From IMG/VR virus record IMGVR_UViG_3300010157_000035, positions 62,001 through 126,000 of that record: a stretch of DNA of 64,000 nt; one strand, written 5' to 3'. A program made the position numbers and the translations under genes. Shown here one piece after another: positions 1-53,566 of this stretch. This DNA is from a virus. How positions within the stretch are numbered: position 1 is the first letter of the stretch; the number at the start of each line of letters is the position of its first letter. A model generated the notes under the pieces. It saw only the letters and a list, made by a program, of their open reading frames with translations, made no database searches and was not told where the DNA came from.

Positions 1-283
1 CAAAGTTTGCGCTGTATTCGCCAGCATGTTCAGGGTCTATCACCTGCACTCGATTGTAAGGATCCGCTTCAGGTTCCTGTTCTTCATCATCATACTCTTG
101 ATCGGGCAAGTGTAAACTGGACAGTGAAACACGTTGTAGTTCATACTGCGGATAACGCAGGATCAATTTTTTTAAGAACCCGCCGCCCTTTTGATCGTCT
201 GGGTGTATACCATCTACATAATTCCAAACCTGTTGAGCCGAAGCAGTTTTAACAGATTCAACAACAAACTCATGGGCTTTCAT
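1..283 (-). CDS. Internal-protein-like protein, N-terminal 94 residues (runs off window)
   Basis: The frame is open from the ATG at 283 to the window edge, so the C-terminus is missing. The first residues, MKAHEFVVE, resemble the capsid-targeting peptide of T4 internal protein III (MKTYQEFIAE) and the start of the gene at 1207-2355 (MKANEFITE). In T4 the prohead protease cuts such peptides after Glu. Residues 20-35 carry a WNYVDGIHPDDQ segment and 60-75 are very acidic. The ATG overlaps the stop of the upstream GH19 gene (ATGA), implying coupled translation. No enzymatic domain is recognised in the visible part; an internal virion role is inference. Confidence 0.7.
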   Translation of the reverse strand, partial: MKAHEFVVESVKTASAQQVWNYVDGIHPDDQKGGGFLKKLILRYPQYELQRVSLSSLHLPDQEYDDEEQEPEADPYNRVQVIDPEHAGEYSANF

Positions 284-1206
284 CGTTGTGCTACTTGATA
301 AGATTTAAATTGGTCTTTGCGTGACTGTAGGCCTTTTGCGGCAGGATTGATAGTTTTAGTTACAGCCGCGGTGTTGCCGAAATCTTTTATTTTTGTAGCA
401 ACACGATTTTGCCAATACCATACTGCCACTTTGGCAGCAACGTCGGGTCTAGCAGCCAAATCTGGTTGTTGTGCTAATGGCAATCCTAATGCAGCACCAG
501 CTCTAGTATAATTGTCACGCCCGGTCAATTGTATAAACCCACGTCCTTTGAAACGTTCACCATCACCTTTGACCTTGTTGCCTAGGATCCGTGCCTTGCG
601 TGGGTTCTGTTCGTACTTTTTAGTAAAGTAAGTTGGACTACCACGTTCTTCCATACTGGCAAAGTTTGCACTTTCATGGGCACATTGTGCCAAAAACTGT
701 GCCAATTCGGTACCTTTGATTCCGCTGGCCACGGCAACTGCTTTTAATTGATCTACTAGTGAAGATTGTTGTGCAGGTGCCGCTTGTTGTGTTAAGGCAG
801 CTGGTCGTACCGGTGCAGCTGCTGTTGATTGAGCAGTTGTTGCGGCTGGTGCTTGTGCAACAGGTGCAGTCATTTTTGCATTTGCTGCGCCACCACCTAG
901 GGCCATTGCTCCAGCCAGTGCAGCACCACCTAGGGCACTTTTCCATCCTTCTTCTAGTTCTTCTAACTCCTCAGCAGGCCAACTGATAAAACTATTGCCG
1001 TTGATGTCGCCGGCTCGCACAACAAACGCACCACCGTTGTCGTATCCTTCGTCTTGGCCAATTTCCCAACCCATTGACGCCAGTGTGCGTTCGGCACGTG
1101 GATCTTCGTCACCTTGCCACCATTGTGCGGCCAGCTGACGTAGGATTTCTTCTTCGTCGGGCTGTCTATCGTCACCACCTGCGGGTGCAAATTCGCGTAG
1201 TCTCAT
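280..1206 (-). CDS. GH19 chitinase/lysozyme-type protein with unique N-terminal domain
   Basis: Residues about 150-305 form a glycoside hydrolase family 19 domain, which in phages cleaves peptidoglycan glycan strands. AHESANF (catalytic Glu near 176) and the GRGFIQLTGRDNY segment are visible. Residues 1-100 are an unrecognised acidic module (WWQGDEDP, GGAFVVRAGD) and 105-150 a Gly/Ala/Pro-rich linker. A second, compact GH19 enzyme sits in the lysis cassette at 16808-17419, so this longer one more likely acts in the virion, for example in entry. It begins one base after the stop of the 1207-2355 gene and overlaps its downstream neighbour by four bases. Confidence 0.85.
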   Translation of the reverse strand: MRLREFAPAGGDDRQPDEEEILRQLAAQWWQGDEDPRAERTLASMGWEIGQDEGYDNGGAFVVRAGDINGNSFISWPAEELEELEEGWKSALGGAALAGAMALGGGAANAKMTAPVAQAPAATTAQSTAAAPVRPAALTQQAAPAQQSSLVDQLKAVAVASGIKGTELAQFLAQCAHESANFASMEERGSPTYFTKKYEQNPRKARILGNKVKGDGERFKGRGFIQLTGRDNYTRAGAALGLPLAQQPDLAARPDVAAKVAVWYWQNRVATKIKDFGNTAAVTKTINPAAKGLQSRKDQFKSYQVAQR

Positions 1207-2355
1207 TTAGCAATTCCATCTACGACGTGCTTTACATATGGCCTTGTCTGGAGTTTTAGCACAGCTGATGTTGTGCATTTTCATTTGACCACGACTGCGA
1301 CTACAATAACTCTTGCGGCGCTTTGATGCTTTACTACCCTTCTTCAACTTTGAAGGCTTGGTAGTCACAGCAGTTTGTAGTTTTGATCCTGGGTGTTCTC
1401 TGCGATATGTTTTAACAGCCTTACGACTCATGCCATCTGTTTTGTCGCGATTGTTGGCTTTTTGCCATGCTTCGGTTTCTGATAGATTTTCTTTGGCAGG
1501 TTCCTGTGTCACAGCAAACACATACAACTCATCATCTGACAAACTTTCTAAATCTTCCCAGATTGCTTCTGCATCTACACCATTGCGATCAGCAAGATCA
1601 GTTATAATGCTTTCTATTAGATCAAACTCTTCAGACAATTCTTGTTGACCCCCGATAGCTTGTAGCATAGCACGAGCAACCACACGATCTTTTTCTTTTT
1701 CATCTTCGGGCAATTGAGCATACTGTTGAGTCATTAGTTTCTGACGCTGTGCTATCTTGGCTTGTAGTTTTTCTGGAGCCATTGTTTTGGAATCATCAAA
1801 CATCTGTGGATTTTTAACAAACGCCTGTGCTGTTACATTCCAACCTTTGTGGATGGCATCGCTAATTGCCTCAATATCTGTAACACCACGATCAATCATT
1901 TGTTTGGCAAAGGACGCAGATTTTAAGTTGGCCTGCCAACCAAATGTATTGCCTGGACTACTACGACCATAACCATATGCTGCATCCAATGCTGCATCAC
2001 TAATTTGTGCCAACTGTTGAACACTTAGTTGTTGACCTTCGTTAATGCTTTCATTGGGCACACAGTTACGAACTGGTCCACCATTTTTGCCCTTCTTGGT
2101 ACCTTCTGCGTGTTTACCTGGCCAACAACGGGTATATCCATTTGCGTCTTTTTGACCTTTCTTGATTTCCATGACATTGCCGTGTGTTTCACACATGCCA
2201 CAGTCTTCACACACCATTTCCATCTCAACCGATTCGTTGTGCTTTTTCTTACCAGCACAGTGCGCCCGTTGGCTGAAACCTTTGGGGTGGCTACAGTTGA
2301 TACTGCTTTTGTATTTTTGACTCCACTTTTCAGTTATAAATTCATTAGCTTTCAT
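1207..2355 (-). CDS. Modular internal-protein-like protein with cysteine-rich basic C-terminus
   Basis: The start MKANEFITE matches the T4 capsid-targeting peptide pattern (aromatic-[I/L]-x-E near residue 9), with possible cleavage after ITE. A Cys/His-rich segment follows (CxxCGMCETHG near 50), then SINEGQ near 105, another I-x-E-G site. The C-terminal 75 residues are very basic, with SKASKRRKSYCSRSRGQMK and a final RRRWNC, a tail I recall from other large-phage proteins but cannot name. No enzyme is recognised. ATG overlaps the stop of the 2082-residue gene, so the four genes from 8600 to 1 look like one translational unit. Confidence 0.75.
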   Translation of the reverse strand: MKANEFITEKWSQKYKSSINCSHPKGFSQRAHCAGKKKHNESVEMEMVCEDCGMCETHGNVMEIKKGQKDANGYTRCWPGKHAEGTKKGKNGGPVRNCVPNESINEGQQLSVQQLAQISDAALDAAYGYGRSSPGNTFGWQANLKSASFAKQMIDRGVTDIEAISDAIHKGWNVTAQAFVKNPQMFDDSKTMAPEKLQAKIAQRQKLMTQQYAQLPEDEKEKDRVVARAMLQAIGGQQELSEEFDLIESIITDLADRNGVDAEAIWEDLESLSDDELYVFAVTQEPAKENLSETEAWQKANNRDKTDGMSRKAVKTYRREHPGSKLQTAVTTKPSKLKKGSKASKRRKSYCSRSRGQMKMHNISCAKTPDKAICKARRRWNC

Positions 2356-5300
2356 TTTTTGTGTCCTCTACGCATATTTAGTTGCCAACGGGCCAGCTGT
2401 CCTTTTCGACCCTTTGCGTGGCTGGCCTTTTCTAGTTGAGCCATAGTGGCACCCTTAGGTATGCCATGACGCTGACTATCTCCTGGACGTCCAGGGCCCT
2501 TGCCATCAGCAAAGTTTTCCGCCACATCTTGCTGACCAATTTGAACCAACCACTCTAATTCATCATCAGCATCCTTGACATCATAGAATTTGACATTGGG
2601 AATCTTTTTTGCGGCAAACCACTTGTTGGCCACTTTAACCATAAGGGCACGATGTTGTGGATCACGAACATCCGGCTCGTAGCCTCCTGTTAAGTTGACC
2701 CATAACGCACTTGGATTGCCGTTCCGATCATAACCTAGCAATTCACGCCATTGCTGTTGCAATCGATCTGGCACATACTGGTCTAACTCTGTGTCACTCA
2801 TCCACTCTTGCCCAATGTCAACACCTTCCGCCACACCTTGCTTGCCCGAGATATTTTGTACCGCTTTTAAGTGTCCAGCACCCACCACATAGACTCCGGC
2901 TTTTCTTGTGGCTAGGTATTGGTCTCTAGTATCAACTGTGGCCGCTCGTGCTATCTTGCCTGCACGATTGGGATATTGCTCCCAATTGCTGGGCCACATC
3001 AAAGCCTCGCCGGCTTTGAGGAATTGAGTGAGATTTTCTTCAGTAGCCGGCTGTTGACTCATTTTGACAAAATCATATTTGCCTTCGCTGGCCAATGATA
3101 GAAATTTTTCCAGTGCCGAGGCAGTGAATCCCATGCCTTGGAACGAGTTGTCTTGGGCAGTGACCATGAGTCTATTGAATATGGTGTCTTTGGGATCCAC
3201 ACCTACTCGTTGTATTCTATTGTTGGCATCTACATTGGCAAACAAAACATAAATCCATTTTGGATCATTGGGGCTGGCAGTTTTTGCTACCTCGTCATCA
3301 AAACTGCCCACATAGCGGTCAATCACCCCGCGAGTGTAGGCACGATCAGCACCGTTGCCTTCGTACCAGGCACCGTGTTGAGCCGCTATGGCTTGAACTT
3401 TTTTCAATGTCTCAGGAGACAACTCCAAGGGCTGGCCGTGTTGTTGTCCAACTATTACGGTGTTGGGGTTTAGGAATATGGCAGATTCTGTCAACTTGCC
3501 TTCCGCCACACCTTGTTTGCCAATTTCTTCTATGTCCTTGTCTGCTACTATTCGCACAGGAATACTTTTTGTACCCGACAATTTATATGCCCAGAATCTA
3601 TGATGACCATCTAATACCTGATATCCATTTTTATATTTGCGAACCAACAATGGTGGCAACTTGTCACCCTTCTTTAAGCCAGCAACAATCTTTTCAACAT
3701 TGGCTTGGCTTTTTGGTTGATTCATCTTTGAATCTGGCTCAAAGCCCACAAGTTTATTAGCGGGTATGTTGACAACTGGTAGGCTATCAAACCCTGTGTC
3801 ATCTACTTCTGCCCCAAAATAGCCAGGATCTGTGTGGAGTTTGACCTTGCCTTCCGCCACCGCCGGCGCTTGTTTTGTTAGAGTATAAGTTGCGCCGCCT
3901 GGCATATCGCTTCTTGCTAAATCGTAACCGCTACCAGTGACGTAGCGTCGAAGCATTCTATCATACAGTCTAGCTCTGCTGCCGGTAGGGTCATCCTCTT
4001 TTTCTGCACTGAAGTTTAACCGCGCTGGTTTCTTCTTAGCAATAAATTGTTGCATGGCAGTCAATACTGTGGCAAACACACGAGGAGCATCGCCTTCACC
4101 GGTGATTTCCATGTTTTCATCACGCTCAAACTCTACCATCCAACTGTTGTCGCCTTGAGCCATAAACAGCACGATCAGTTCACTGCCGTCATCCAAGTCA
4201 GCTGTGGCATGCCAGTCACCATTTTGTTTGCTCCATTGTATAGTGTAAGGTTGATCAAAGGCTTCTGTGATTGGTTCGGTCGGAGTCCATTCGAAACTTT
4301 CAACTGGCACTGAATATTTGTCACTGAGTTTTTGTAACAGTGCATCTAGCGTGGCAACAGGAATATTTTGGGCGACCACACGTCGGCCCTGACTGCCTGG
4401 AACTGGACGATAGTATACATCCACATGTTCAGGATCAATGATACGTGTTTCTGCCACAGGCTTGGTCCAAGCACGGGCCGGCACATTCAATGTTTTTTCC
4501 AAATGTTTCAGCGTGGCCGTTGTCAGCAGGTCAGTGCTGTCACGACCGGGTTGATAATACCACCGGCCCTTTTGAGTTTGTCTTAGGCCCATGATTCTCA
4601 AATCAAGATGGTCGAAACTGCGGCCGCCTTTGGCCACATCAAAGAAGTAGAGTGTATCAGCAGGGTTTGCACTTTCTGTAACGCTTTCCGTCATGATCGG
4701 CACCACTTCAACATCTGCACCCGGTGCAGGAGATAACGATCCTTGACTGCGTTGATCCTGCAACCAGGTTTGAGCAATGCGATTGGCATCTGCTTGATTG
4801 TTGCCCACACCACGGAAGCGCCACACTTCTTCTCCGTCCAACATGACTTTCCACTGTCCACTAAAACTGTTGCCTGCCGGTGCTGAACTGGTCTGATATC
4901 TGTTGCCAAACAAGTCTCTGAATGAGTAATTCGTGTCACGACCATCGGTCCTGTTCTGCGGGAAATTCTGTGCCACGTCTACAGGCACTTCAGGAATGTC
5001 ATCCGAGGCTGGCGCAGACTGCAGGCTCAGCACGTCAGGACGCACACCATTTCTACGGGCTGTGTCGTGTAGCACGGCTAGAGCCTGATCCCGACTGGCA
5101 CCACTCACAGTGTTCAGTGTTTCTCCAGTGGCACTGTAGATTATGCGCCAGTTGCTGTTTGATTCGGTGCCTCTAGTTCTCACACCAAAACGGTCATAAT
5201 TTTCAGCGGCAATGCTTCCCATGGCCATGCGTTGTGCTTGAGCACGATCGGTTATGGGTCGGCCGTCCACACTGAGGTTGGCAGCCGAGTTACCAGTCGC

Positions 5301-8300
5301 TCTGTTGTAGATTTCCCAAGGGCCTGGGCCGGTGGGTCGTAGACTGTTAGGCAGGGCGCCTTGATCAGCATCACCCACGGGTCTGGCACCAAACACCAAT
5401 CTAGCATCTACTGTGCCTATGCCGTGGGGCCCAAAATTGATATAATCATCTAATCTTGTGTTTACATCTGATTGATTGCGAGCAGAGAATTCAGTGTCGG
5501 GAATTACCTCACCAGTGCGTCTATCGAACAGTTCATAGGTTCCTGTGCCGGTCTGTGTTGCGCCAGGTTTGTCTGGTTGTTCATCGTAGGGCCGTAAAAC
5601 TTCAGCATCCATTTGAGCCAGAGTGTTGACCAAGAGCGGTTCGCCCCATTCTTTTGCAGCCTTCTGTTTGGCTTCTTCTTCTGAGGTAGCAACCACTTCC
5701 ACTGTGTAACTATATTGGCCAGCATTCTTGCCGTATTTGTAAACTTTCCACCACATTTTTTGGCCGTCATGCTTGCCACGCTTGATATTGCGTTGTAGTT
5801 GTGCTTGTTTGACAAAGCTTCTCAGTGCAGCTTTGGGAATCTTGCCAGCCACATAGTCACTGAAGTATCGGATAGTGTCAACATCTTTGTTACCGTCGCT
5901 CAACAACTTGTATAGTTTAGTCAAATATTCTTGGCGGTATGCATCAGGATCAAGTGCCGCACTCATAGCCACTGTGAAACGCAATAGAGTGTTTTCAATT
6001 TGATCAAAGTTCTCATCCAACCAGTCACCGCCGGGTGAGCGGAATTCAATGTGTCCGTCCTTGGTGTTGATTGACGTATACTTGCTGGTGATACCTGAGT
6101 GTATGGCCTTGCTGGCCAACTGGTCCATGTTGCCCTTCATCTTGTCCAACAGTTTGGCCGCATTGTCAGGATTGTCACGTACGGCTTTTTTAACAATGTC
6201 CAAGGCTGACTTGGCATAGGTATTGCCGGCACGCCCAAATGCATCCAACACATAATTGTCGCCCATGAGCAAGGCCAGTTTCACAAAGTCTAGTTTCTGT
6301 CTACTATAGTCGGGCACTGAGATGTTGATGTGCAAGCCGGTTGAATCATTGGTATAGCAACCATATTCTTTGGCCCAGGCCCGGACCTTGTTTAGGTCAC
6401 CTAGTATTTCATCAATGGGCAAGGGTGGTGATACAAACTCCAAGCCTTGGTCGCCGGAATTGTCCGGTTCTAAACTGCCATCGGGTTCAACCACATAACG
6501 CAACTGTGTAGGACTGGGTCTGATCACCGAGCCTGAATGATAGTTGCCACTGGCTCTAACATCACGCCCAATGGCATTTTCAAACTCTTGTGCCACATCT
6601 TCAATGTTAGCTTCGCCACCGCCTTGTGATCGCCAGTGCGGCCAATTCATACTGTATGAACCTTCAACATAACTCATGCGATCTAGATCTGCATCATCCA
6701 ACCAGTCGCTTTCATCATAACTTTCTTGATTTTCTTCACGGAACTCTTCATAGGCTGATTCATAGTCTCTACTATCAGGGTCAGCATGAATATTGGCTGC
6801 ATATTCTTCCAAGGCTTCGTTGCGAGCATCACCCGCCAAATCGTCGGGATTCCATACAGATTCATCCACATTGTTCTTGACCCATTCAGCAATGTATTCC
6901 TCACCACCTCGTGTCCAGTCCGTGGCTATTTTGTCATCCAACCACTCTAAATAGTCCTCGTGCATTTTTTCACGCATACGATCACAATCACGGCGACTGT
7001 TGTAGTCACCATCATAGAAAAAGTCATAGGCATCCTGTATGCTACGGCAACGCTCGTCCATGTCATAGTCAGGTTCTAAATCTTCGTCCCCACTGCCTTC
7101 AACATTGGGCACAATCATTTCAAATTCCATGCCTGCAATGGCACCGGTTTTAGCAGCCTCTCTGCGCAGGTTCTTGCTCCCCATGTTGATTTCAAATAGA
7201 TCTTGCTGTTTGAAATGATCCAGTTCTGTTGCCAACTGTTCAAACAGACCATTGGGGTTGGCTATCTGTGGATGACCTTGACTGTCGGTCTTGAGTTTTA
7301 ATTTATTGGCTTCTCGGCCCACTTGTCCTGGTTTAATGTCCACCGTGAGCGCCATACTATAGCGTGGATCTTTAGCCTGCCGCTTGGTAGGAATATAACC
7401 TGATGCACTTTCGTGAACTTCGTCGGCATGTAAATCATCGGCTTGGCCCACAGCAAAGTATTCTGGATGCATTCTAGCATAGTCACGCATGAGTATGCCG
7501 GCTCTGGCATTGGCTTCATTTTCCCATGGTGATCCAGTTTCGCCAGCAGTGCTATCCATGCGCTTGCCATCACGCTCGTGTTGATGTTTGTGTGTGAGTT
7601 CATGTGCCACAGTGCGCAGCACATCCATGATGTGACGATCGCCCCAGGCCACTTCCAACAGGTGTTGATCATTGATGTAGCGGCCAAAGGTGGTGTGTGT
7701 CACAGGCCATTGCGGATCTCGACGCAGTTTGATTGTGGGCATGGATTTGATCTTCAGTTCAGCAACACAGAAACCAATAAAGTCTTTGAGTATTGCTTCA
7801 TCTGACGGTACCGACGCTTCTTCAAGCGCCACTGTATCAGCTTCGACTACAGTAGGAGTGCGGAAGCCATATGTTGTTCGTGGTACAACTGCTTTTTCTT
7901 TGAGACTAAATTCTCTATCCTTGGCCGTATTGCGGGCATCGTATAACTGTTTAATCAAACCCTGACTACGCAACATTTTAAATGCTAAATTTTCTGGACC
8001 AAACTCACCGTGATTTTCCAATCCAGTCTGACGCATCTTTTTAATTTTTTCCGCTAAACGTGTTATGCGTTTTAAATTACCGGACTTAATGGCCGATTCA
8101 ATTTGCCGGCCAACTTTTTCAAACTTGTTGCGGGTGCTGGTATCATCCACTACACTCCGTACTCTACGTGGAACCTGTAACCAGTCGTTGTTTAGTATAG
8201 AATATATGCCCTGACTGACGTGCGGCTTGTCGGCATCTTGCACATATAGTTCTACATCGGCGCCACCAATTTTAATATCGTGTTGTTCGTTATACTGAAA

Positions 8301-8600
8301 CTTTTTGGCATCAAACAGTTCACGGTAAACAGGATTATCTGGCATGTCTACTACCAAGTGTAGGTCGATATCACTGTTGGGCGTATATGTATAAGCCGCA
8401 TTTGATCCGCTGATGGTAATGTCCTTAATTGCTAGATCTGTTACACCCAAAAACTCACGAAAGTCGTCGGCTATTTCCAGCAAGCGTTCGCGCACTTCGG
8501 GGCGCAAATGCTCACGATTGTCCCACAAGCGTGGATTCAATTGATCATTGAATTTAACAGCGTCGTCAAGATTATATGAGTTTAATTCCGTGATGTTCAT
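2352..8600 (-). CDS. Giant multi-domain protein: nucleotidyltransferase, zinc peptidase, amidoligase, ParB-like modules
   Basis: The 2082 residues hold, in order: MNITEL start (I-T-E, like the T4 Alt start); a nucleotidyltransferase near 65-90 (GSNAAY..NSDIDLHLV); a zinc-metallopeptidase near 333 (AHELTH plus downstream ENEANARAG); a putative amidoligase (PF12224-like) about 490-855 (MEFEM, TGLHINIS, HIEFRSPGGDW); three short repeats about 1025-1160 ([WY]E[IL][YF].R.TG type); and a ParB/sulfiredoxin-like domain about 1600-1680 (LDGHHRFWA). Linkers VAEGK (about 1582), GKQGVAEG (about 1695 and 1922) and QQDVAEN (about 2023) separate C-terminal modules. The tail GPGRPGDSQRHGIPKG is basic. It looks like a processed internal virion polyprotein; substrates are unknown. 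Confidence 0.8.
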   Translation of the reverse strand: MNITELNSYNLDDAVKFNDQLNPRLWDNREHLRPEVRERLLEIADDFREFLGVTDLAIKDITISGSNAAYTYTPNSDIDLHLVVDMPDNPVYRELFDAKKFQYNEQHDIKIGGADVELYVQDADKPHVSQGIYSILNNDWLQVPRRVRSVVDDTSTRNKFEKVGRQIESAIKSGNLKRITRLAEKIKKMRQTGLENHGEFGPENLAFKMLRSQGLIKQLYDARNTAKDREFSLKEKAVVPRTTYGFRTPTVVEADTVALEEASVPSDEAILKDFIGFCVAELKIKSMPTIKLRRDPQWPVTHTTFGRYINDQHLLEVAWGDRHIMDVLRTVAHELTHKHQHERDGKRMDSTAGETGSPWENEANARAGILMRDYARMHPEYFAVGQADDLHADEVHESASGYIPTKRQAKDPRYSMALTVDIKPGQVGREANKLKLKTDSQGHPQIANPNGLFEQLATELDHFKQQDLFEINMGSKNLRREAAKTGAIAGMEFEMIVPNVEGSGDEDLEPDYDMDERCRSIQDAYDFFYDGDYNSRRDCDRMREKMHEDYLEWLDDKIATDWTRGGEEYIAEWVKNNVDESVWNPDDLAGDARNEALEEYAANIHADPDSRDYESAYEEFREENQESYDESDWLDDADLDRMSYVEGSYSMNWPHWRSQGGGEANIEDVAQEFENAIGRDVRASGNYHSGSVIRPSPTQLRYVVEPDGSLEPDNSGDQGLEFVSPPLPIDEILGDLNKVRAWAKEYGCYTNDSTGLHINISVPDYSRQKLDFVKLALLMGDNYVLDAFGRAGNTYAKSALDIVKKAVRDNPDNAAKLLDKMKGNMDQLASKAIHSGITSKYTSINTKDGHIEFRSPGGDWLDENFDQIENTLLRFTVAMSAALDPDAYRQEYLTKLYKLLSDGNKDVDTIRYFSDYVAGKIPKAALRSFVKQAQLQRNIKRGKHDGQKMWWKVYKYGKNAGQYSYTVEVVATSEEEAKQKAAKEWGEPLLVNTLAQMDAEVLRPYDEQPDKPGATQTGTGTYELFDRRTGEVIPDTEFSARNQSDVNTRLDDYINFGPHGIGTVDARLVFGARPVGDADQGALPNSLRPTGPGPWEIYNRATGNSAANLSVDGRPITDRAQAQRMAMGSIAAENYDRFGVRTRGTESNSNWRIIYSATGETLNTVSGASRDQALAVLHDTARRNGVRPDVLSLQSAPASDDIPEVPVDVAQNFPQNRTDGRDTNYSFRDLFGNRYQTSSAPAGNSFSGQWKVMLDGEEVWRFRGVGNNQADANRIAQTWLQDQRSQGSLSPAPGADVEVVPIMTESVTESANPADTLYFFDVAKGGRSFDHLDLRIMGLRQTQKGRWYYQPGRDSTDLLTTATLKHLEKTLNVPARAWTKPVAETRIIDPEHVDVYYRPVPGSQGRRVVAQNIPVATLDALLQKLSDKYSVPVESFEWTPTEPITEAFDQPYTIQWSKQNGDWHATADLDDGSELIVLFMAQGDNSWMVEFERDENMEITGEGDAPRVFATVLTAMQQFIAKKKPARLNFSAEKEDDPTGSRARLYDRMLRRYVTGSGYDLARSDMPGGATYTLTKQAPAVAEGKVKLHTDPGYFGAEVDDTGFDSLPVVNIPANKLVGFEPDSKMNQPKSQANVEKIVAGLKKGDKLPPLLVRKYKNGYQVLDGHHRFWAYKLSGTKSIPVRIVADKDIEEIGKQGVAEGKLTESAIFLNPNTVIVGQQHGQPLELSPETLKKVQAIAAQHGAWYEGNGADRAYTRGVIDRYVGSFDDEVAKTASPNDPKWIYVLFANVDANNRIQRVGVDPKDTIFNRLMVTAQDNSFQGMGFTASALEKFLSLASEGKYDFVKMSQQPATEENLTQFLKAGEALMWPSNWEQYPNRAGKIARAATVDTRDQYLATRKAGVYVVGAGHLKAVQNISGKQGVAEGVDIGQEWMSDTELDQYVPDRLQQQWRELLGYDRNGNPSALWVNLTGGYEPDVRDPQHRALMVKVANKWFAAKKIPNVKFYDVKDADDELEWLVQIGQQDVAENFADGKGPGRPGDSQRHGIPKGATMAQLEKASHAKGRKGQLARWQLNMRRGHKK

Positions 8601-8606
8601 AGATAG

Positions 8607-8612
8607 TATTTA
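8607..8612 (-). promoter_or_regulatory. TAAATA late-promoter-like motif, 6 bases before the 2082-residue gene
   Basis: The minus strand reads GGTAAATACTATCT then ATG. TAAATA is the core of the T4 late promoter TATAAATA. At this distance the predicted transcript would start at or next to the ATG, so the mRNA would be leaderless or nearly so. No Shine-Dalgarno sequence is visible. Confidence 0.5.
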
Positions 8613-8622
8613 CCGGATAAAC

Positions 8623-8643
8623 AAAAGCCGCTAACTTAGCGGC
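8623..8643 (-). terminator. Intrinsic terminator after the glycosyltransferase gene
   Basis: On the minus strand a perfect 7-bp GC-rich hairpin (GCCGCTA, loop AGT, TAGCGGC) is followed by TTTTGTTT. It lies between the stop of the glycosyltransferase gene and the start of the giant gene, separating the two transcription units. Confidence 0.8.
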
Positions 8644-8668
8644 CTGTGTAGAACAAACAAAAATTAAT

Positions 8669-9535
8669 TTATTTTTTCTTTTTCTTGCTTGAGGCTAGCA
8701 CTGTGGCTTCAACTGGTGCAGGCGGTGTATTGCTTAGGGCTTGTCCATTAGACATGGCCAAATTATGCAGATCTTTGTAAAGTTGATCCTGTGTCTGGAA
8801 GTCAAATACGTAGGTTCCGGTGTGTTTAAGCAGGACACGTTTGTCCACCCAAACTTTACCGCCGATGTCACGCCAGTTTTCACAGAATGTCCAGTCTTCA
8901 CTGTAGTAGCGATTTTCGCGCACTGCTGTGTCAAAGTAAGTTTTCATGTAAGGATTGAGTTCTGCAGGCAAACCAATGTCGTTGATAAAAGGTTTGGTAG
9001 CAGGATGAGCATTTAGTTTCTCAAATACATCACGCTTGATCAACATGAAACCTGTGCCAGTTTTGCTGACTTCTTGTAAGGTGCCGTCTTCTGACACTTC
9101 TGCACCATCAAATCCGTTCACACACCATTTGACCGGCAACGATTTCATTGGATATAATCCACCAATGACATCTTTTTGTGCGTTCAGCATGACCAGCAGG
9201 TGCCAGGGTTCCCAACCAATGTCAGCATCAACAAACATCAAGTGAGTGCTTTCTTTGTTGTGCAGGAACTTGGCTGTGAGCGTATTTCTAGCACGACTGA
9301 TCAAACTTTCATTGGTCATGGTTTCCATGGTCCAATCAATGCCCAATTGACGACAAGTGTTGGCCCACTTGATGTAGCTCATAAATGTCGATTCTGTTAG
9401 CATGCCACCATAACACGGCATACAAATATGCACACGGGTAGTTTTTAAATAGTCAACGTTGACTTGGATCTGTTGTTGACCTGGCTGTAATGCCGGTGCT
9501 TGTGTTGTTGGTGTTGCGTCTTGGGTTTCAGCCAT
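8669..9535 (-). CDS. Glycosyltransferase family 2-like protein
   Basis: 288 residues. The central part has the features of the GT2-like proteins common in large phages: CMPCYGGM near 39, NESLISRARN near 75 and FVDADIGWEP near 100, whose DAD is the probable metal/nucleotide-sugar-binding DxD. A short Gln/Pro-rich N-terminus and a Lys-rich tail (SSKKKKK) flank it. Acceptor and sugar cannot be told; targets could be phage DNA, virion or host envelope. It has its own leader with a hairpin and AGGAACTT before ATG, and a terminator directly downstream, so it appears monocistronic. Confidence 0.7.
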   Translation of the reverse strand: MAETQDATPTTQAPALQPGQQQIQVNVDYLKTTRVHICMPCYGGMLTESTFMSYIKWANTCRQLGIDWTMETMTNESLISRARNTLTAKFLHNKESTHLMFVDADIGWEPWHLLVMLNAQKDVIGGLYPMKSLPVKWCVNGFDGAEVSEDGTLQEVSKTGTGFMLIKRDVFEKLNAHPATKPFINDIGLPAELNPYMKTYFDTAVRENRYYSEDWTFCENWRDIGGKVWVDKRVLLKHTGTYVFDFQTQDQLYKDLHNLAMSNGQALSNTPPAPVEATVLASSKKKKK

Positions 9536-11343: not shown

Positions 11344-12021
11344 CTATTTAGCCGGGATTATTTCTAATGTTTTTCTTATTAGTCCCGGCACCACCAAACT
11401 CAACATGGTCAACCAAACGGGTTCATTATAATCAATGAAGAAATAATCTTGTGTTCGTGTATATTTAAAATTGATCCAATTTTTTAGTGCAGGACTAATT
11501 CTAATACCGGACTGATTTGCTAAAAAGTTTTTTAAATGAGTTTTTTGCTCGGCAGTTAATTTGCCTACTTTAAAATAACTGCGCCATTGATATTTGGGAT
11601 CTCGTAATTGAATTGTATTTCTAGGGCGACTCACAACAGCTTGACTATATTCAACGTAAGACACGCCTGGTAATTTAGCCACTTGATCAATTAACATTCG
11701 ATCGTTAGCGTAAACATACCCAGTGAACGCACTAACTACCAACTTAAAATTTGCTGGCGTAGTCAATAATACATCAGCCAATACGTGCAAATTTTTAACT
11801 GTTGTTTCGGTAATTTTATTTGACTGATTGGATAATTGTGTCACAAGTGGTCGGTTATTCATAGTTTGACTTATTGACCGCCAGGCAATCCTACGCTCAA
11901 TCATACTGTCAATGTGTGCATGTTCCAGAGTTCTTAAACAACTAACTTCTTCCAAATGAAACCTTACGCAATACTCAAATTGACTGTAAAATAATCGATC
12001 TTTGACAACAGGTTTAAACAT
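11344..12021 (-). CDS. Unrecognised 225-residue protein
   Basis: A mixed protein without a recognised domain. It has a predicted hydrophobic stretch near the C-terminus (PVWLTMLSLVVPGLIRKTLE) and a central LLTTPANFKLVVSAFTGYVY segment. It overlaps the end of the ClpA-type gene by eight bases, so it is probably co-transcribed with it. The stop is TAG. Confidence 0.6.
   Translation of the reverse strand: MFKPVVKDRLFYSQFEYCVRFHLEEVSCLRTLEHAHIDSMIERRIAWRSISQTMNNRPLVTQLSNQSNKITETTVKNLHVLADVLLTTPANFKLVVSAFTGYVYANDRMLIDQVAKLPGVSYVEYSQAVVSRPRNTIQLRDPKYQWRSYFKVGKLTAEQKTHLKNFLANQSGIRISPALKNWINFKYTRTQDYFFIDYNEPVWLTMLSLVVPGLIRKTLEIIPAK
11345..11350 (-). promoter_or_regulatory. TAAATA motif, 7 bases before the 54-residue gene
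   Basis: The minus strand reads GCTAAATAGTTGACTATG. The motif overlaps the TAG stop of the upstream gene. Late-promoter-like core with very short predicted leader. Confidence 0.35.
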
Positions 12022-14290
12022 TTGCGCCTGTTTGGTTGAGCACGATGTATCCGTCTTTGTCTACTGTAGGAGCCAGCACCAGAGGTTCAATATCAAATTC
12101 AACAGTATCTTCGACCATTGTGGCAGTTATAGTGCAGTTGTCCAGGCGATCAAACAAGATACGCTTACTAAGCGGCACACGGATTAATTCGTCAATTTTA
12201 CGGCCCAGTGGTCTAGCACCCATTTTGCTGTCGTAACCTTTGTCAGCCAACATGTCAATCACTGACTCGGTCAAGTTTAACCGGATGTTTTTGTTTAACA
12301 AACTATCTTTGAGTTCGTCGACAAATTTAAGCACAACCTTCTTGATGGCCAATGTATCTAACTTGTCAAACTTACACACACAGTCAATACGGTTGCGTAG
12401 CTCGGGCTTAAAGAACTCTTTCATGGCTTTTTCTTCACTGCCAGTGCGTTCTAAACTTTGTCCAAATCCAATGTTGTTGTTTTCATTGTCTCTGGCACCC
12501 AAGTTTGATGTCATAATAATGATACAGTTTTTAAGATCCACTGTTTTGCCACTGCTTGATGTAATACGTGCTTCATCCAACATCTGCAACATGATGTTGA
12601 TCACGTCAGGGTGTGCCTTTTCGATTTCATCAAACAGCAAGATACTAAACGGATTTTTACTTACATCACTGATCAGTTTACCGCCGCCCACTGTGCCGGA
12701 CTCAAAACCCACATAGCCTGGAGGAGCACCAATGAGACCCGACACAGTATGACGTTCTTGGTATTCACTCATATCATACTTGAGCAGTTTCATATCTAGA
12801 TGCTCACCGAGCAATTTAGCCAACTCTGTTTTACCTGTGCCAGTTGGGCCCAAGAACAAGAAACTGGCAATAGGACGCTTGGCATTGCCGATGCCACTGA
12901 AGTTGATATACACACGTTCCAGCACACGATCCACTGCCGCATCTTGTCCATATAATTTTTGCTTGATGTTGGTTTCTAAATCAACAATCTTGGCACTGCG
13001 TTCATTCTCCAATCGATCCAAAGGAACCGCGGTAACTCGACTCAATTGCTCCATGATCATTTGCTTGTTGACAGTTACATTGCCCGCATCTCGTACACGT
13101 TCCTTGGCACAGGCACCGTCTAATAGATCAATTGATTTGTCGGGATTTTTACGATCGTGTATGTAACGTCCACTCAAGTGAACTGCGGCTGTGATAGCTT
13201 CGGTGTCAATCAACACATTGTGAAACGATTCCAATCGTGGGCTAAGTCCAATAAGGATTTGCTCTGTTGTTACTGCATCAGGTTCATCAATGCTGACCCG
13301 ATGGAAGCGACGCATCAACGCACGATCTTTTTCAAATGATTCGTAGTATTCTTCCCAGGTGGTTGACGCTACCACTTTGATATTGCCTCTAGTGATGGCA
13401 GGTTTAAGCATATTGGCCATGTCTAAACTGCCTTGACTGCTGGCACCTGCGCCTTGCATAGTGTGTGCTTCGTCCACAAACAAGATACAGTTTTTCTTGG
13501 TTTCAAGTGCAGTAATAACGGCCTTGAACTTTTCTTCAAACTCGCCGCGATACTTGGATCCAGCCAACAGGCTTCCTACTTCTAAACTCCACAGTTCGTG
13601 TCCTTTAAGGAATGCTGGAACACGGTTGGCCTGCATTTCCTGCGCTAGGCCTTCGACGATGGCAGTTTTACCCACACCAGGATCGCCTACCATCAGCACA
13701 TTGGCTTTGAACTTGCGGGCCAACACTGTGATCATTTCATCTAGTTCGTCGGTGCGGCCAATCATGGGCTCTAATCGATCTTCTCTGGCCAAGTCAGTCA
13801 AATTAACACAGTGCTCGGCCAGTATTTCTGTTGCCTGTTGGTCAGTGAGTCGAACATCACTTTGTTTATAATTGGTTTGATAAAATTCTGCAAATTCTTG
13901 TTTTTTCACTCCAAATTTAAGCAAGAAATAGTGTGCATGACTATTGGTCTCGCTCATTATGGCCAAGTATAAATCCAAGGTGCTAACACTTCTGCGACCA
14001 GTAAACAGCACCTGTGTTAGTGCGCGATTAAACACACGTTCCAGCGCATTGGTTTTCTTGGGTGGAACTGGAGTTGCTGCAACTATTGTGACTATACCAC
14101 TGAGATAAGATTCTAGCTCTTGTTGTAGTCGTCCTGTGTCAGTGCCGAACTTGTCTAATACACGACAGAAAGGATCATGTTTAATTAACGACAACAACAC
14201 ATGTTCAGTCATTACATATTCATGATGACTATCACGTGCCATTTTGACTGCGGCATCGACTATTTGTTCAATTTCGGGATTGTTTTGCAT
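12014..14290 (-). CDS. clpA: ClpA-type AAA+ unfoldase
   Basis: 758 residues, the normal ClpA length, with a Clp N-domain (1-140), AAA-1 with Walker A GDPGVGKT near 203 and AAA-2 with GPTGTGKT near 482, plus the ClpB_D2-small C-terminal domain. An IGF tripeptide near residue 606 (NNNIGFGQ) occupies the position of the ClpP-docking IGL loop of E. coli ClpA, so it probably docks on ClpP to unfold substrates for degradation. No ClpP gene is visible, so host ClpP is the likely partner. No middle coiled-coil of ClpB is present. A sigma70-type promoter lies directly upstream with AAAGGAA as ribosome-binding site. Confidence 0.92.
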   Translation of the reverse strand: MQNNPEIEQIVDAAVKMARDSHHEYVMTEHVLLSLIKHDPFCRVLDKFGTDTGRLQQELESYLSGIVTIVAATPVPPKKTNALERVFNRALTQVLFTGRRSVSTLDLYLAIMSETNSHAHYFLLKFGVKKQEFAEFYQTNYKQSDVRLTDQQATEILAEHCVNLTDLAREDRLEPMIGRTDELDEMITVLARKFKANVLMVGDPGVGKTAIVEGLAQEMQANRVPAFLKGHELWSLEVGSLLAGSKYRGEFEEKFKAVITALETKKNCILFVDEAHTMQGAGASSQGSLDMANMLKPAITRGNIKVVASTTWEEYYESFEKDRALMRRFHRVSIDEPDAVTTEQILIGLSPRLESFHNVLIDTEAITAAVHLSGRYIHDRKNPDKSIDLLDGACAKERVRDAGNVTVNKQMIMEQLSRVTAVPLDRLENERSAKIVDLETNIKQKLYGQDAAVDRVLERVYINFSGIGNAKRPIASFLFLGPTGTGKTELAKLLGEHLDMKLLKYDMSEYQERHTVSGLIGAPPGYVGFESGTVGGGKLISDVSKNPFSILLFDEIEKAHPDVINIMLQMLDEARITSSSGKTVDLKNCIIIMTSNLGARDNENNNIGFGQSLERTGSEEKAMKEFFKPELRNRIDCVCKFDKLDTLAIKKVVLKFVDELKDSLLNKNIRLNLTESVIDMLADKGYDSKMGARPLGRKIDELIRVPLSKRILFDRLDNCTITATMVEDTVEFDIEPLVLAPTVDKDGYIVLNQTGANV

Positions 14291-14320
14291 GTATTCCTTT
14301 TAATAATACGCCTTACAGTT

Positions 14321-14349
14321 ATTATACTACCGTTAGAATAGAATTGCAA
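14321..14349 (-). promoter_or_regulatory. Sigma70-type promoter of the clpA-like gene
   Basis: TTGCAA (14349-14344), 17-base spacer, TATAAT (14326-14321) on the minus strand; the ATG is at 14290, leaving a leader of about 25 bases with AAAGGAA. Confidence 0.65.
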
Positions 14350-14362
14350 CCTATATGGTTAT

Positions 14363-15145
14363 TTATTGGTCACGACTTTGGACAATGGCCGCCATCAATG
14401 ATTCAGGAATATGTGCAGGTATCACAGCATTAACCCGCACAAACATATCGCCAGGTGCATTGCCTTTTTGCCCAAGTCCTCGTCCTTGTAATCTAAACGT
14501 GGTTTTGGCCTGTGTTCTGGGCGGTACAGTTAAGGTAAGTTGATTGCCCAAAACGTCTTGAATTACAATATCCTTACCTAAAATGAGGTCCCACACGCTT
14601 ACGTCTTGGTCTACAGTCAAATTCGGGCCTTGACGATGCCATTTGGGATTGGGGTGAATTCTAAAGGTTATTACTAGGTCAATACCACCTGGGCCTACAC
14701 CAGCGTATTGAACACTATCACCATCATCGATATTGGCAGGTATATCTATTTCTATAACTTGTGTGCCTTGAGGAGTGCCTACACTGATAGTTTTGCGGCC
14801 AGCTACGGCCACATCGTTTAGTGTAATCCACAAGGTCATTTGTGCTCGATTCACCCGTTGATGTGGCTGTTGGAACCTGGCACCGAACACATCAAATATA
14901 GTGTTAAAATCAAATCCGCCTGGCCCCTGATGTTGAAAATTAAAACCCTGCGGACGCGGATTGTTGTATTCGGCACGTTTTTGCTCGTTGCCTAGTATAT
15001 CGTATGCGGCTTGAATTTCTTGAAATCGTGCTTTGTCTCCACCTTTGTCAGGATGATGCTGACTGGCCAATTTACGATAGGCCCGTTTGATTTGGTCAGG
15101 AGTAGCGTTGCGGTCAACGCCCAGAGTTTGGTAGTGGTCAGTCAT
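14363..15145 (-). CDS. DnaJ/CbpA-type J-domain chaperone
   Basis: Residues 1-65 are a J domain with the HPD signature near 32 (ASQHHPDKGGD), which stimulates DnaK ATPase. A short Gly/Phe-rich stretch (FNFQHQGPGGFDFN) follows, then two DnaJ C-terminal beta domains. There is no CxxCxGxG zinc finger, so the architecture is that of class II J proteins such as CbpA. Length 260 is slightly short for the class. The start is three bases after a terminator T-run and has no Shine-Dalgarno. With the ClpA-type gene just downstream it forms a proteostasis pair. Confidence 0.9.
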   Translation of the reverse strand: MTDHYQTLGVDRNATPDQIKRAYRKLASQHHPDKGGDKARFQEIQAAYDILGNEQKRAEYNNPRPQGFNFQHQGPGGFDFNTIFDVFGARFQQPHQRVNRAQMTLWITLNDVAVAGRKTISVGTPQGTQVIEIDIPANIDDGDSVQYAGVGPGGIDLVITFRIHPNPKWHRQGPNLTVDQDVSVWDLILGKDIVIQDVLGNQLTLTVPPRTQAKTTFRLQGRGLGQKGNAPGDMFVRVNAVIPAHIPESLMAAIVQSRDQ

Positions 15146-19808: not shown

Positions 19809-20425
19809 ATTACTTTTACCTCTAGGTCAGACGCCATATAGTCTTGCTGATATTCTTCTGGCGGTTGTGGAATACCTAATATTTCTGCTAGTTCTTGATT
19901 GTTGCGAACAACAAGGCCATCATAATTAGCCCATGCCCGGCCTATGTCTCGATTTTGCCAATCAATGATTTTACTCATTTCACGCAAATTCTTATAATAC
20001 TTATCGTAGCTGGGATAGGTAATATTAAAATGTCCGCAACGCACCCACCAGCCCAGACAAGCATCGTTGTCACGCAGGGCTAAAATAATAGGACAGTCGG
20101 GCCACGTAGATTTAATAAAGTCTACATGGTGTGCAAACACATGACTTTTGATAATACGTGTACCTTCGCCTGAAAAAGGCCGATCAAACTCTGCTTCACA
20201 TTGTTCTTTTGTATAGTCACTGAGCTTGTCAAAGAAATCGCCAAACTCCATTCCAGGATCAAAGTATACTCCAAGATGCATCAGGTCTAATTTGCCCGAA
20301 GCATCGTGGTAGTAGGTTCTATCTTCGGTATAGTCAGTACGATCTATACTGGGACTATAGTAGATATTTTTAATCAAGCTCGACCATTTACTGCCTGGAG
20401 CACCGGCACAAAAAATATACTTCAT
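19805..20425 (-). CDS. Second sulfotransferase-like P-loop protein
   Basis: Residues 8-16 (GAPGSKWSS) and LALRDNDACLGWW near 115-127 parallel the two PAPS-binding motifs seen in the 18496-19125 product, although overall similarity between the two is low by eye. 206 residues, cytoplasmic. Overlaps both neighbours by four bases. Substrate unknown; a more general P-loop role cannot be excluded. Confidence 0.55.
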   Translation of the reverse strand: MKYIFCAGAPGSKWSSLIKNIYYSPSIDRTDYTEDRTYYHDASGKLDLMHLGVYFDPGMEFGDFFDKLSDYTKEQCEAEFDRPFSGEGTRIIKSHVFAHHVDFIKSTWPDCPIILALRDNDACLGWWVRCGHFNITYPSYDKYYKNLREMSKIIDWQNRDIGRAWANYDGLVVRNNQELAEILGIPQPPEEYQQDYMASDLEVKVI

Positions 20426-21414
20426 TCTTTACTCAAATCAATTCGTTGTAGCACTGGCAAGAATGTTTCACGTAAACTTTCCATTTGTTTTTTCAAACCT
20501 GCTGGAGTAAGTTCGGCCTCTTCATAGAATACTACGTTTTTCTCACGCCATTCGGCATATTCCTTGCTGCGAATTGCGGCACTGAATGTTTTCTGATACC
20601 ATGCAACAATTTCTTTGTCTGTGTTGGGGGGCAATTCAATTGACCAAGCTGCGTATACATTAATTCCCGGTGCCACAGTGTTCAACAGTGGCACATCCGG
20701 ATACTGTGGCATTGTGCGTGTACCAGTAAATCCAATGGCTTTGACTTTGCCGGCTTCGACCAATGGCCTAGCCACAGCAATAGGCATAATACCAAACTCT
20801 GTGCCTACTTTTCCATCGTACTGTGCCACGCTGGTCACTGCTGGCAATGGACCGTTGAATTTGATTGGCTTGATCAGATCACGATTGCCATGTGCTTTGT
20901 TAATCAAATATTCGTATGCTGTTCTATGTGCTCCGCCGCCTACAGCAATATTAATAGGCCGAGTAGACTTAGCAAGATAACGCACAAAGTCAACTGGTGT
21001 TTCTACTGTGCTTTTTGGGCTGGCAACCAATACCAGCGGACTCTTGCCCATGGTCAATACATCAACAAAACTGTCCCATTGATATTTTTTAATCTTTGCT
21101 TCCCAAATATCATTGGTGACATAGCTGCTCATATGGCTTGGCAAGTTGATGGTATAGCCATCTGCAGGTTGTTGTATGAAATGGTTGTTGGCCACTGCAC
21201 TGTCGGCACCCGGGCGATTTTCCACCACATAAACAAACTTGGGATTTTTCTTCTGCACAATTTCGGCCAGTTTACGGAATGCTATCTCGTTTCCGGCACC
21301 GGGTGTGTTGCCCACAACAACTGTGACTGTTTTTGTAGGTTCCCAAGCATGGGATACCGAACATGCGCCCATTCCGGCCATGGTAATAAACAATGCTGCA
21401 AATAATCGTTTCAT
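20422..21414 (-). CDS. Bug-family (TctC-type) periplasmic solute-binding protein
   Basis: 330 residues, full length for the family. A signal peptide (FAALFITMAGMGACSVSHA) is followed by TVTVVVGNTPGAGNEIAFRK, ENRPGADSAVA, IAVGGGAHRTAYEY and GIMPIAVARPLVEAGKVKAIG, all hallmarks of Bug receptors of tripartite tricarboxylate transporters. These bind carboxylates in the periplasm. No TctA/TctB membrane gene is visible, so it would feed a host transporter or act otherwise. Bug genes are massively expanded in Burkholderiales, pointing to host origin. Overlaps the sulfotransferase-like gene by four bases. Confidence 0.9.
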   Translation of the reverse strand: MKRLFAALFITMAGMGACSVSHAWEPTKTVTVVVGNTPGAGNEIAFRKLAEIVQKKNPKFVYVVENRPGADSAVANNHFIQQPADGYTINLPSHMSSYVTNDIWEAKIKKYQWDSFVDVLTMGKSPLVLVASPKSTVETPVDFVRYLAKSTRPINIAVGGGAHRTAYEYLINKAHGNRDLIKPIKFNGPLPAVTSVAQYDGKVGTEFGIMPIAVARPLVEAGKVKAIGFTGTRTMPQYPDVPLLNTVAPGINVYAAWSIELPPNTDKEIVAWYQKTFSAAIRSKEYAEWREKNVVFYEEAELTPAGLKKQMESLRETFLPVLQRIDLSKE

Positions 21415-53482: not shown

Positions 53483-53566
53483 TGCTGATTGCTCCTTTGT
53501 AGCATTAGAGTAGTTGGGGATTGCCGTCCCGTGAACTACACTATTATTTATCACCAATCCTTCCAT

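Follow-up and report, generated by a model that had tools for sequence, protein, structure and literature searches.

Organization of the operon

The window, that is, the whole stretch of 64,000 nucleotides analysed here, covers positions 62001-126000 of the virus record IMGVR_UViG_3300010157_000035 (G000), a fragmentary record of 130,621 bp from a phage that is probably T4-like. At the beginning of the window lies a minus-strand operon whose products carry short N-terminal tags and, in the case of the largest protein, modules joined by short linkers of the type KQGVAEG; these tags and linkers are the subject of this report. In transcription order, the operon encodes a giant modular protein of 2082 residues (start MNITELNSYN, 2352-8600) with module homologues in other contigs, a 382-residue protein directly downstream (start MKANEFITEK, 1207-2355), a 308-residue GH19 endolysin-like protein (start MRLREFAPAGG, 280-1206; PF00182, 7.8e-13; phrog_181, endolysin) and a 429-residue protein (start MKAHEFVVES). 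The window edge cuts the open reading frame (ORF) of the last protein, which occupies positions 2-283 and runs onward to G000:60994. The preliminary description of this DNA had listed MNITEL, MKANEFITE and MKAHEFVVE as the starts of three consecutive products; all three starts are real, but the products are not consecutive, as the GH19 ORF lies between the second and the third.

The 382-residue protein was composed of the tag MKANEFITE, a WSQKYKSSINC module and a C-terminal DUF6321 module (1207-2355). In the 429-residue protein, the sequence QGVTE/A (the slash marks the position of a putative cut) preceded a module named FDQPY after its start. An additional 810-residue protein of the same record (G000:55839-58271) contained the related sequences GVAEE, GVAEG and GMAEG.

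Modules and linkers of the giant protein

The start tag of the giant protein, MNITE (8586-8600), contains hydrophobic-x-Glu at residues 3-5; the next residue is Leu, which is also the case for the T4 Alt start given in the preliminary description. Homologues of this N-terminus begin with MNIHEL, MNLHEL, MNSKEL, MQLNEL and MNLKEL, and four of these five retain hydrophobic-x-Glu. Residues 1-235 (7896-8600) form a nucleotidyltransferase-like module that matched phrog_36119 (E 6e-43) and PF01909 (20.5 bits, with a cut-off of 21). This is followed by a peptidase-like module (residues 268-394, 7419-7799), in which a HELTH motif was recognized by eye and no Pfam family matched at E 0.1; the same module was also found behind the tags MRARDFLLE and MRAVEFLVE in other contigs. 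The amidoligase-like module comprises residues 468-938 (5787-7199) and matched PF12224 over residues 665-781 (28.3 bits, with a cut-off of 22); locus L178 holds a homologue of this module.

The junction ITE/A (residues 1444-1447, 4260-4271) stands ahead of an FDQPY module (residues 1447-1583, 3852-4262), which is a paralogue of the C-terminal domain of the MKAHEFVVE protein. The linker VAE/G (residues 1581-1584, 3849-3860) leads into a ParB/sulfiredoxin-fold module (residues 1584-1700, 3501-3851), and a first KQGVAE/G linker (residues 1695-1701, 3498-3518), with the DNA core caaggtgtggcggaagg at 3499-3515, leads into a module with no assigned function (residues 1701-1925, 2826-3500). A homologue in locus L101 covers residues 1651-1925 at 45% identity. 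A second KQGVAE/G linker (residues 1920-1926, 2823-2843; DNA core at 2824-2840) and the linker QQDVAE/N (residues 2023-2029, 2514-2534; 3 mismatches to the DNA core) enclose another module with no assigned function (residues 1926-2028, 2517-2825). The protein ends with an NFADGK module (residues 2029-2082, 2355-2516), which was preceded by Glu in 24 of 24 copies in the loci examined, including all 15 copies without the DNA linker. The VAEG/VAEN linkers that had been placed at about 1582, 1695, 1922 and 2023 were thus confirmed, with VAE[GN] starting at residues 1581, 1698, 1923 and 2026; more sites of the same type were MTES at 1303, VTES at 1307 and ITEA at 1444. When 141 selected ORFs of the record with a total of 37,961 residues were scanned for the motif [VMI][AT]E[GANSE], which was picked once the giant protein had been seen, it occurred 20 times. 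Eleven of the 20 occurrences fell in the giant, the 810-residue and the 429-residue proteins, which together have 3,321 residues (binomial 1.8e-7).

Four activities had been proposed for the giant protein. The amidoligase passed its Pfam cut-off, whereas the nucleotidyltransferase (20.5 of 21 bits) and the ParB-like module (21.3 of 26.3 bits) remained below theirs, and the peptidase rests on the HExxH motif seen by eye, with no Pfam match. The ParB-like fold was nevertheless backed by structure prediction. An AlphaFold2 model of this module with both flanking linkers, calculated from a 10-sequence alignment, had a mean predicted local distance difference test score (pLDDT) of 68 and a predicted template modelling score of 0.63, and a Foldseek search with the model returned ParB and sulfiredoxin folds with a best E of 2.7e-6. 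Secondary structure was found at model residues 17-124, and the pLDDT was below 50 at residues 1-15, 126-139 and 53-59; both linkers sit in the 1-15 and 126-139 parts. Among 20 common modules, 7 obtained a Pfam family at E 0.01 (ParB_N, DUF6321, DUF5872, DUF6886, Acetyltransf_1, GP88 and DUF5035), and 3 of those were above the curated cut-off. We also considered whether the modules are basic internal proteins in general. The net charge was 4.0 per 100 residues in the last units of arrays versus 0.4 and 0.5 in the others, and because only the last units were clearly basic, this general trait was rejected.

Conservation of the linker as DNA

The GVAEG sites were encoded by nearly identical codons each time. 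The 17-nucleotide core caaggtgtggcggaagg, allowing up to 3 mismatches, occurred three times in the window, always within the giant gene, compared with an expectation of 0.12, and none of 100 shuffles reached three. These three sites also formed the longest three-copy direct-repeat family in window positions 1-8700, with one two-copy family being 1 base longer. A pattern that specified only the peptide KQGVAEG retrieved at least 119 stretches of viral DNA with at least 139 copies joining very different modules, although some of the 139 listed copies are plain chance matches in short frames. Among the matches listed, 85 of the 139 copies had one form, AAGCAAGGTGTGGCGGAAGG, out of 512 synonymous forms. 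In 242 contexts collected blind to the DNA sequence, Ala was encoded by GCG in 91% of cases versus 8% elsewhere in the same ORFs, with corresponding values of 86% versus 18% for Val GTG and 96% versus 45% for Gly GGT.

A simple explanation would be a constraint at the protein level only, in which the peptide is selected as a protease site or flexible linker and the DNA is identical because the modules share a recent ancestor. The strong conservation of the Glu and of a hydrophobic P3 residue (see below) is in agreement with this explanation, as is the similar codon agreement of modules and linkers above 95% amino acid identity (0.92 and 0.97). However, the linker codons are used at frequencies far from those of the same ORFs, and homologous module pairs with lower identity behaved differently. 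At 25-50% amino acid identity, four-fold codons agreed at 576 of 1747 positions in the modules (0.33) but at 119 of 147 in the linkers (0.81); at 50-70% identity, the counts were 884 of 2242 (0.39) and 72 of 90 (0.80), and the agreement was 0.51 versus 0.74 at 70-85% and 0.68 versus 0.81 at 85-95%. Because diverged module pairs keep their linker codons, common descent of the modules does not explain the identity of the linker DNA, which is conserved beyond descent. This comparison largely refutes the protein-only explanation, and we consider it very improbable.

The linker DNA was bound to one reading frame. Near copies with up to 3 mismatches in 18 were in register in open frames of at least 100 codons in 325 cases and not in register in 1; with up to 5 mismatches, these numbers were 430 and 29. 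In 20 whole records, 98 linker matches were found on one strand only per record, compared with 3 for the pattern read backwards. As 19 of these records were selected for carrying the linker, its presence in 20 of 20 records does not represent a prevalence.

Linkers within one locus were no more alike than linkers of different loci. Out of 21 positions, linkers differed at 3.77 after a shared module, at 4.21 before a shared module and at 4.39 in random pairs, indicating a small effect of the upstream side. Since the linkers are not alike within a locus and are hardly tied to their neighbours, conversion within one genome does not explain their identity, and such independence is as expected if exchange occurs in or at the linkers across a large pool. 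Candidate sources of the DNA constancy are exchange through short homology, an enzyme recognizing the linker, or both. Among promiscuous 17-mers in the loci, the linker had 162 copies with at least 131 flanks, and the next unrelated 17-mer, ranked by the number of distinct flanks, had 14 copies with 10 flanks, in a ranking that favours the linker, since the loci were fetched by it.

A blastn search of isolate phages (50,697 phage records) with a 42-nucleotide linker query gave matches at chance level only, in 17 records with a best E of 2 and exact runs of at most 18 bases among the matches listed. In bacterial genomes, a 20-nucleotide linker pattern was found in 2 stretches, which is about chance by our estimate. 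No mention of the peptide KQGVAEG was found in the literature searched, and no title or abstract was found that combines phage polyproteins with a prohead protease or describes such conserved domain linkers; most subscription journals were outside the scope of both searches.

Probable module exchange at the linkers

The linker-bearing proteins are modular throughout. We found 421 linkers in 151 ORFs, delimiting 270 inner units with a median length of 80 residues (range 40-578), and 572 units fell into 382 families, of which 291 were singletons. The ParB-like family of the window had 14 copies in 12 loci, which were preceded by 13 and followed by 10 distinct units; for the second-largest family, with 11 copies, these numbers were 11 and 10, respectively. 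Families with at least 3 copies had 122 followers, 112 of them distinct. When the same module was compared between different loci, the follower belonged to the same family in 26 pairs and to a different family in 293. Homology between loci often breaks at the linkers: for DNA homologies of at least 85% identity, 62 of 112 ends were located inside a linker and 83 of 112 within 15 nucleotides (random, 4.2% and 9.8%), and for all identities, the corresponding counts were 172 and 250 of 600. We read the linkers as conserved DNA that would mark points of module exchange.

Unrelated modules could also be joined at short repeats during metagenome assembly, and the linker-bearing sequences are indeed metagenomic, with a repeat of about 20 nucleotides. 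An artefact of this kind could neither create the linker nor hold its frame, and identical 60-residue junction contexts recurred across metagenome numbers (L044/L074, L072/L107/L115 and L022/L030). In addition, the isolates S-SM2, DSL-LC02 and S-CREM2 share some of these modules but have them in a different order, as judged by eye. We regard an assembly artefact as scarcely credible.

Linkers and start tags as putative protease sites

Upon inspection of the 325 near copies, the positions that would determine a protease site were the most constant. The middle base of the Val codon deviated in 1 copy, and in the Glu codon the first base deviated in 2 copies and the second in 1, whereas the remaining clearly non-synonymous positions deviated 7 to 55 times; only differences between positions count here, as the set was picked by few DNA mismatches. 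The residue at P3 was V in 304 copies, M in 13, L in 6, A in 1 and I in 1, and the residue at P1 was E in 322, K in 2 and A in 1. P3 and P1 are thus conserved.

Tags and linkers share module borders in part of the families. For modules with both tag-borne and linker-borne copies, the border offset was 0 in 66 of 118 pairs, and the median offset was at most 3 in 10 of 24 families. The same border was found, for example, in MKANEFITE/KWSQKYKSSINC and GVAE/EWSQKYKNSINC, as well as in MRAQEFVAE/AFDRPY and GVTE/AFDQPY. We also followed five module starts through all loci, allowing 0-1 residue between Glu and the module and omitting two chance hits. Glu preceded 69 of 69 copies and hydrophobic-x-Glu preceded 65 of 69 (random, 12.4% and 3.9%), and among copies without the DNA linker, the counts were 49 of 49 and 45 of 49. 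For the individual starts without the DNA linker, hydrophobic-x-Glu was found in 16 of 16 copies for WSxKYK, 12 of 15 for NFADG, 6 of 6 for FDQPY, 9 of 9 for ASGYIP and 2 of 3 for DWQK; copies from the linker-free cyanophage isolates S-SM2 and DSL-LC02 are included. A stricter tally, in which Glu had to stand directly before the pattern and the chance hits and the ParB-like start were included, gave Glu in 33 of 65 and hydrophobic-x-Glu in 25 of 65.

A strict start tag was present in 16 of 85 linker ORFs versus 53 of the 651 remaining ORFs in these loci (p 0.003), and a loose tag was present in 43 of 85 versus 96 of 651. Of the starts in the window, MKANEFITE and MNITE match a targeting sequence ending in L/I-x-E; in MKAHEFVVE, P3 is Val, and the GH19 protein is untagged. 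The proposal that the starts resemble capsid-targeting sequences is backed by these comparisons, and the modules follow hydrophobic-x-Glu behind a tag or a linker alike.

The MRA start tags were themselves restricted in codon use. Their Arg codon was AGA or CGA in 27 of 27 matches to a DNA pattern, and in loci L003, L008-L126 and L172-L198, it was AGA or CGA in 53 of 54 cases compared with a background of 46%. Because of this difference, the MRA tag may also be constrained as DNA.

Head genes and recombinases in linker-bearing records

Of the 20 linker-bearing records, 5 held both a peptidase S77 (gp21) and gp23, and neither was found in the others; the T4 portal was detected in 4 of the 20 and RecA/UvsX-like proteins in 6. 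L40 and E42 were invariant among the five gp23 proteins, with M, L, A, V and A at residue 41, which gives the picture of a putative L-x-E maturation site. The preliminary description had suggested a search for the prohead protease gene elsewhere in the genome; gp21 was not found in G000, which is a fragment, and the T4 portal (gp20) was not found in that fragment either. Searching the 15 gp23-negative records with a gp23 profile gave no match, in a search that had no positive control. An HK97-type protease was considered as an alternative cutter and rejected, as it was found in 0 of these 15 records. In two linker-bearing records of about 262 kb (G006 and G013), T4 gp21, gp23, the portal and an HK97-type protease were not found.

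These results bear on the possibility that the giant protein remains one long unprocessed chain, associated with the virion or tail or located within the cell, with VAEG as an uncut spacer. Such a chain would suit G000, in which no protease was found, and the two records of about 262 kb, in which T4 head genes were not found either; cutting is proposed here from comparison. An uncut spacer would not explain why tag and linker place the same Glu before the same module in part of the families, why stand-alone copies of modules use a tag, or why five relatives carry gp21 together with a matching gp23 site. We consider an unprocessed chain unlikely.

Another possibility is a site-specific cassette system in which the linker DNA is the site of a recombinase or homing endonuclease, comparable to a shufflon or integron, and its translation into a peptide is simply tolerated. 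A candidate homing endonuclease with an I-TevI-type DNA-binding domain is encoded in the window (see below). A short, nearly fixed DNA in hundreds of contexts, linkers that are not homogenized within loci and hardly tied to neighbours, and a single orientation within each record (98 matches across the 20 records; backwards control, 3) are all features that such a system would produce. On the other hand, a tyrosine integrase (PF00589) was found in 0 of the 20 linker-bearing records, with the controls detected in 14 of 14, and a serine recombinase (PF00239) in 0 of 20, with the controls detected in 10 of 14, although the records may be incomplete. Moreover, near copies keep one reading frame (325 versus 1), copies that vary mostly still have a hydrophobic P3 and Glu at P1, a restriction for which a pure DNA site has no need, and modules without the DNA linker still follow hydrophobic-x-Glu (45 of 49). 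A pure cassette system therefore appears improbable to us.

Virion-listed homologues in cyanophage S-CREM2

The virion proteome of the T4-like cyanophage S-CREM2 has been published (PMC10665884, Table 3); the statements on virion listing below refer to this table and the accompanying parts of that source. In protein searches, residues 14-234 of the giant protein matched S-CREM2 positions 126042-126722 with 38.8% identity, and the DUF6321 module matched positions 109258-109518 with 68.1% identity. These positions lie within ORF156 (126012-126725) and ORF137 (108049-109521), respectively, which are both virion-listed, ORF156 with 6 peptides and 15.2% coverage and ORF137 with 4 peptides and 4.1% coverage (PMC10665884). 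Homologues of two modules are thus virion-listed in another phage. ORF156 begins with MKKLISEL, the virion-listed ORF154 begins with MKNFSSFLTE, and the virion-listed ORF160 contains a module that resembles, by eye, the DUF5872-like one and stands behind ISE. Hydrophobic-x-Glu sites in S-CREM2 include MNE before DWQKANRKDKTDGM and ISE before GKKDACYHK.

Tag-like starts were enriched among listed proteins, being present in 6 of 26 listed non-structural ORFs versus 4 of 166 unlisted ORFs (Fisher p 5e-4) and in 1 of 24 listed structural ORFs, with the endolysins counted among the latter; at lengths of at least 150 residues, the counts were 4 of 21 listed non-structural versus 0 of 50 unlisted ORFs. 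The pattern used for these counts was looser and was set after several starts had been seen, so that the test was not blind, and ORFs 85, 144 and 164 were left out. We also observed that a virion-listed S-adenosylmethionine hydrolase of S-CREM2 (3837-5081, in L208) begins with the tag-like sequence MKDFDSFLEE; this enzyme could act against restriction.

Other features of the record

G000 encodes a clamp-loader-like AAA+ ATPase and, at G000:48474-51131, a DNA polymerase that is apparently split over two ORFs (377 and 482 residues) with a short gap; the second ORF (482 residues) matches phrog_262. We infer that both the ATPase and the polymerase are of the T4 type. A ClpA/ClpB-like AAA+ ATPase of 758 residues adjoins a DnaJ protein, which has both the J and the C-terminal domain, at window positions 12014-15145. 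A TctC-type tricarboxylate-binding protein with a signal-peptide-like start is located at 20422-21414 (PF03401, 6.6e-18), and a similar start is also present at G000:3127-4038. Three adjacent ORFs of 220-231 residues with alike starts at G000:4058-6055 are probably tandem paralogues, and a protein with an I-TevI-type DNA-binding domain at window positions 52574-53566 is probably a homing endonuclease.

Comparison with known systems

The literature comparisons in this section draw on the relevant parts of the cited sources. The T4 protease gp21 cleaves behind L/I-x-E, a 7-residue propeptide is removed from Alt, and the targeting sequences are short propeptides, of which 10 residues suffice for IPIII (PMC9026906). 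The Ip proteins of T4 are injected and block restriction (PMC12373910). The window proteins resemble T4 IPI-IPIII and Alt in having a short N-terminal tag that ends in hydrophobic-x-Glu and diverse small cargo behind a common tag, and a gp21-type protease and gp23 are present in five relatives. They differ in having many modules per chain with internal sites, a DNA-conserved linker and Val at P3, and cleavage and injection are proposed for them. In SPN3US, the prohead protease cuts after A-x-E (PMC10052503). The SPN3US/phiKZ head proteins are similar in having Glu at P1, and some of their propeptides are cut more than once. Cutting serves to remove propeptides in those phages, and the source makes no use of the word 'polyprotein', whereas the sites described here lie between modules.

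Modular proteins are also encoded between the terminase genes of cyanophages, namely SSM2_109 of S-SM2, WJZ48406 of DSL-LC02 and ORF137 of S-CREM2. These contain DUF6321-type, WSxKYK and, by eye, DUF5872-like modules, several of them behind hydrophobic-x-Glu, but the KQGVAEG DNA linker was not seen there (chance-level matches with the 42-nucleotide query). Shufflons and integrons have a short repeated DNA site at cassette borders, which in shufflons also lies within the coding frame. The linker of the window phage is likewise short, conserved DNA located where cassettes meet; in contrast, no tyrosine or serine recombinase was found in the 20 records, there is one orientation per record and the site doubles as a protease motif. 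A survey of domain mosaicism in phages likewise describes ongoing domain shuffling (PMC10684548); here, one fixed DNA joint serves many modules, and the text of the survey does not contain the word 'linker'. We take the protein part of the present system to extend the known T4 system of targeting sequences, gp21 and injected Ip proteins. To our knowledge, the DNA part has no match, with shufflons and integrons being the nearest analogues.

Proposed function and significance

Taken together, we think it probable that the operon encodes cargo of the phage head, which is targeted by start tags and cut after hydrophobic-x-Glu, with the linkers also serving as in-frame exchange points. The N-terminal tags (MKxxEF[IV]xE, MRAxEF[IV]xE and relatives) would act as capsid-targeting sequences for entry into the prohead. 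There, a prohead protease of the gp21 type would remove the tag and cleave the long proteins at every linker, behind its hydrophobic-x-Glu, and the freed small modules would stay in the head and be injected along with the DNA. At the DNA level, the linker, with its 18-21 or so nucleotides in one reading frame, would be a point at which related phages exchange modules, most simply by homologous or annealing recombination at the short shared sequence. Any module lying in frame between two linkers could thereby be swapped as a ready-processed injected protein. Packaging of the window proteins and their cutting by a prohead protease appear likely from the sequence comparisons, and we infer packaging in the window phage itself, cleavage, injection, an effector function of the modules and the recombination mechanism. 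The packaged and cut polyprotein envisaged in the preliminary description is supported in part, by the equivalence of tags and linkers, gp21 and gp23 of the relatives, the low pLDDT of the linkers around a folded module and the virion-listed homologues; the linker has Val at P3, and no protease was found in the fragmentary G000.

Several observations weigh against this proposal. In the G000 fragment, gp21, gp22 and gp23 were not found, 15 of the 20 linker-bearing records, two of them of about 262 kb, had no detected gp21 or gp23, and no HK97-type protease was found in these 15. The linker has Val at P3 in 304 of 325 copies, compared with the published L/I-x-E of T4 gp21. Regarding the shared borders, 32 of the 66 zero offsets came from one family, and 14 of the 24 families with tag- and linker-borne copies had a median offset above 3. 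The five module starts were chosen after Glu had been seen ahead of several of them, and the DUF6321 border of the window itself (ENLSETEAWQK), one of the 4 exceptions, is not hydrophobic-x-Glu. The strict tag occurred in only 16 of 85 linker ORFs and also in 53 of 651 others, and the GH19 protein of the window and the 810-residue linker protein have no clear tag. For S-CREM2, the peptide counts were low (ORF137, 4 peptides and 4.1% coverage), the authors allow for co-purification of regulatory proteins, and the parts of the paper examined mention no cut ends (PMC10665884). Concerning exchange, within-genome conversion does not account for the identity of the linker DNA, 428 of 600 homology ends at all identities lay outside linkers, and the location of homology ends at linkers partly follows from linkers being module borders.

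More tentatively, as a possibility that may or may not hold, the linkers would represent an undescribed exchange system, in which an in-frame joint of about 20 nucleotides serves a community-wide pool of hundreds of small modules and doubles as a prohead-protease site. If this is true, recombination at the joint would automatically yield an injected protein with the correct targeting and the correct cuts. The joint and the tags would provide a sequence handle that predicts which phage proteins are packaged, and the S-CREM2 homologues allow this to be tested. Injected phage proteins, such as T4 Ip, block host defences, and the joint would explain how such proteins are re-assorted without losing their targeting or processing. 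Phages would then assemble and reshuffle multi-effector polyproteins in the way that integrons reshuffle genes, but with domains as the units and with delivery by the virion included.

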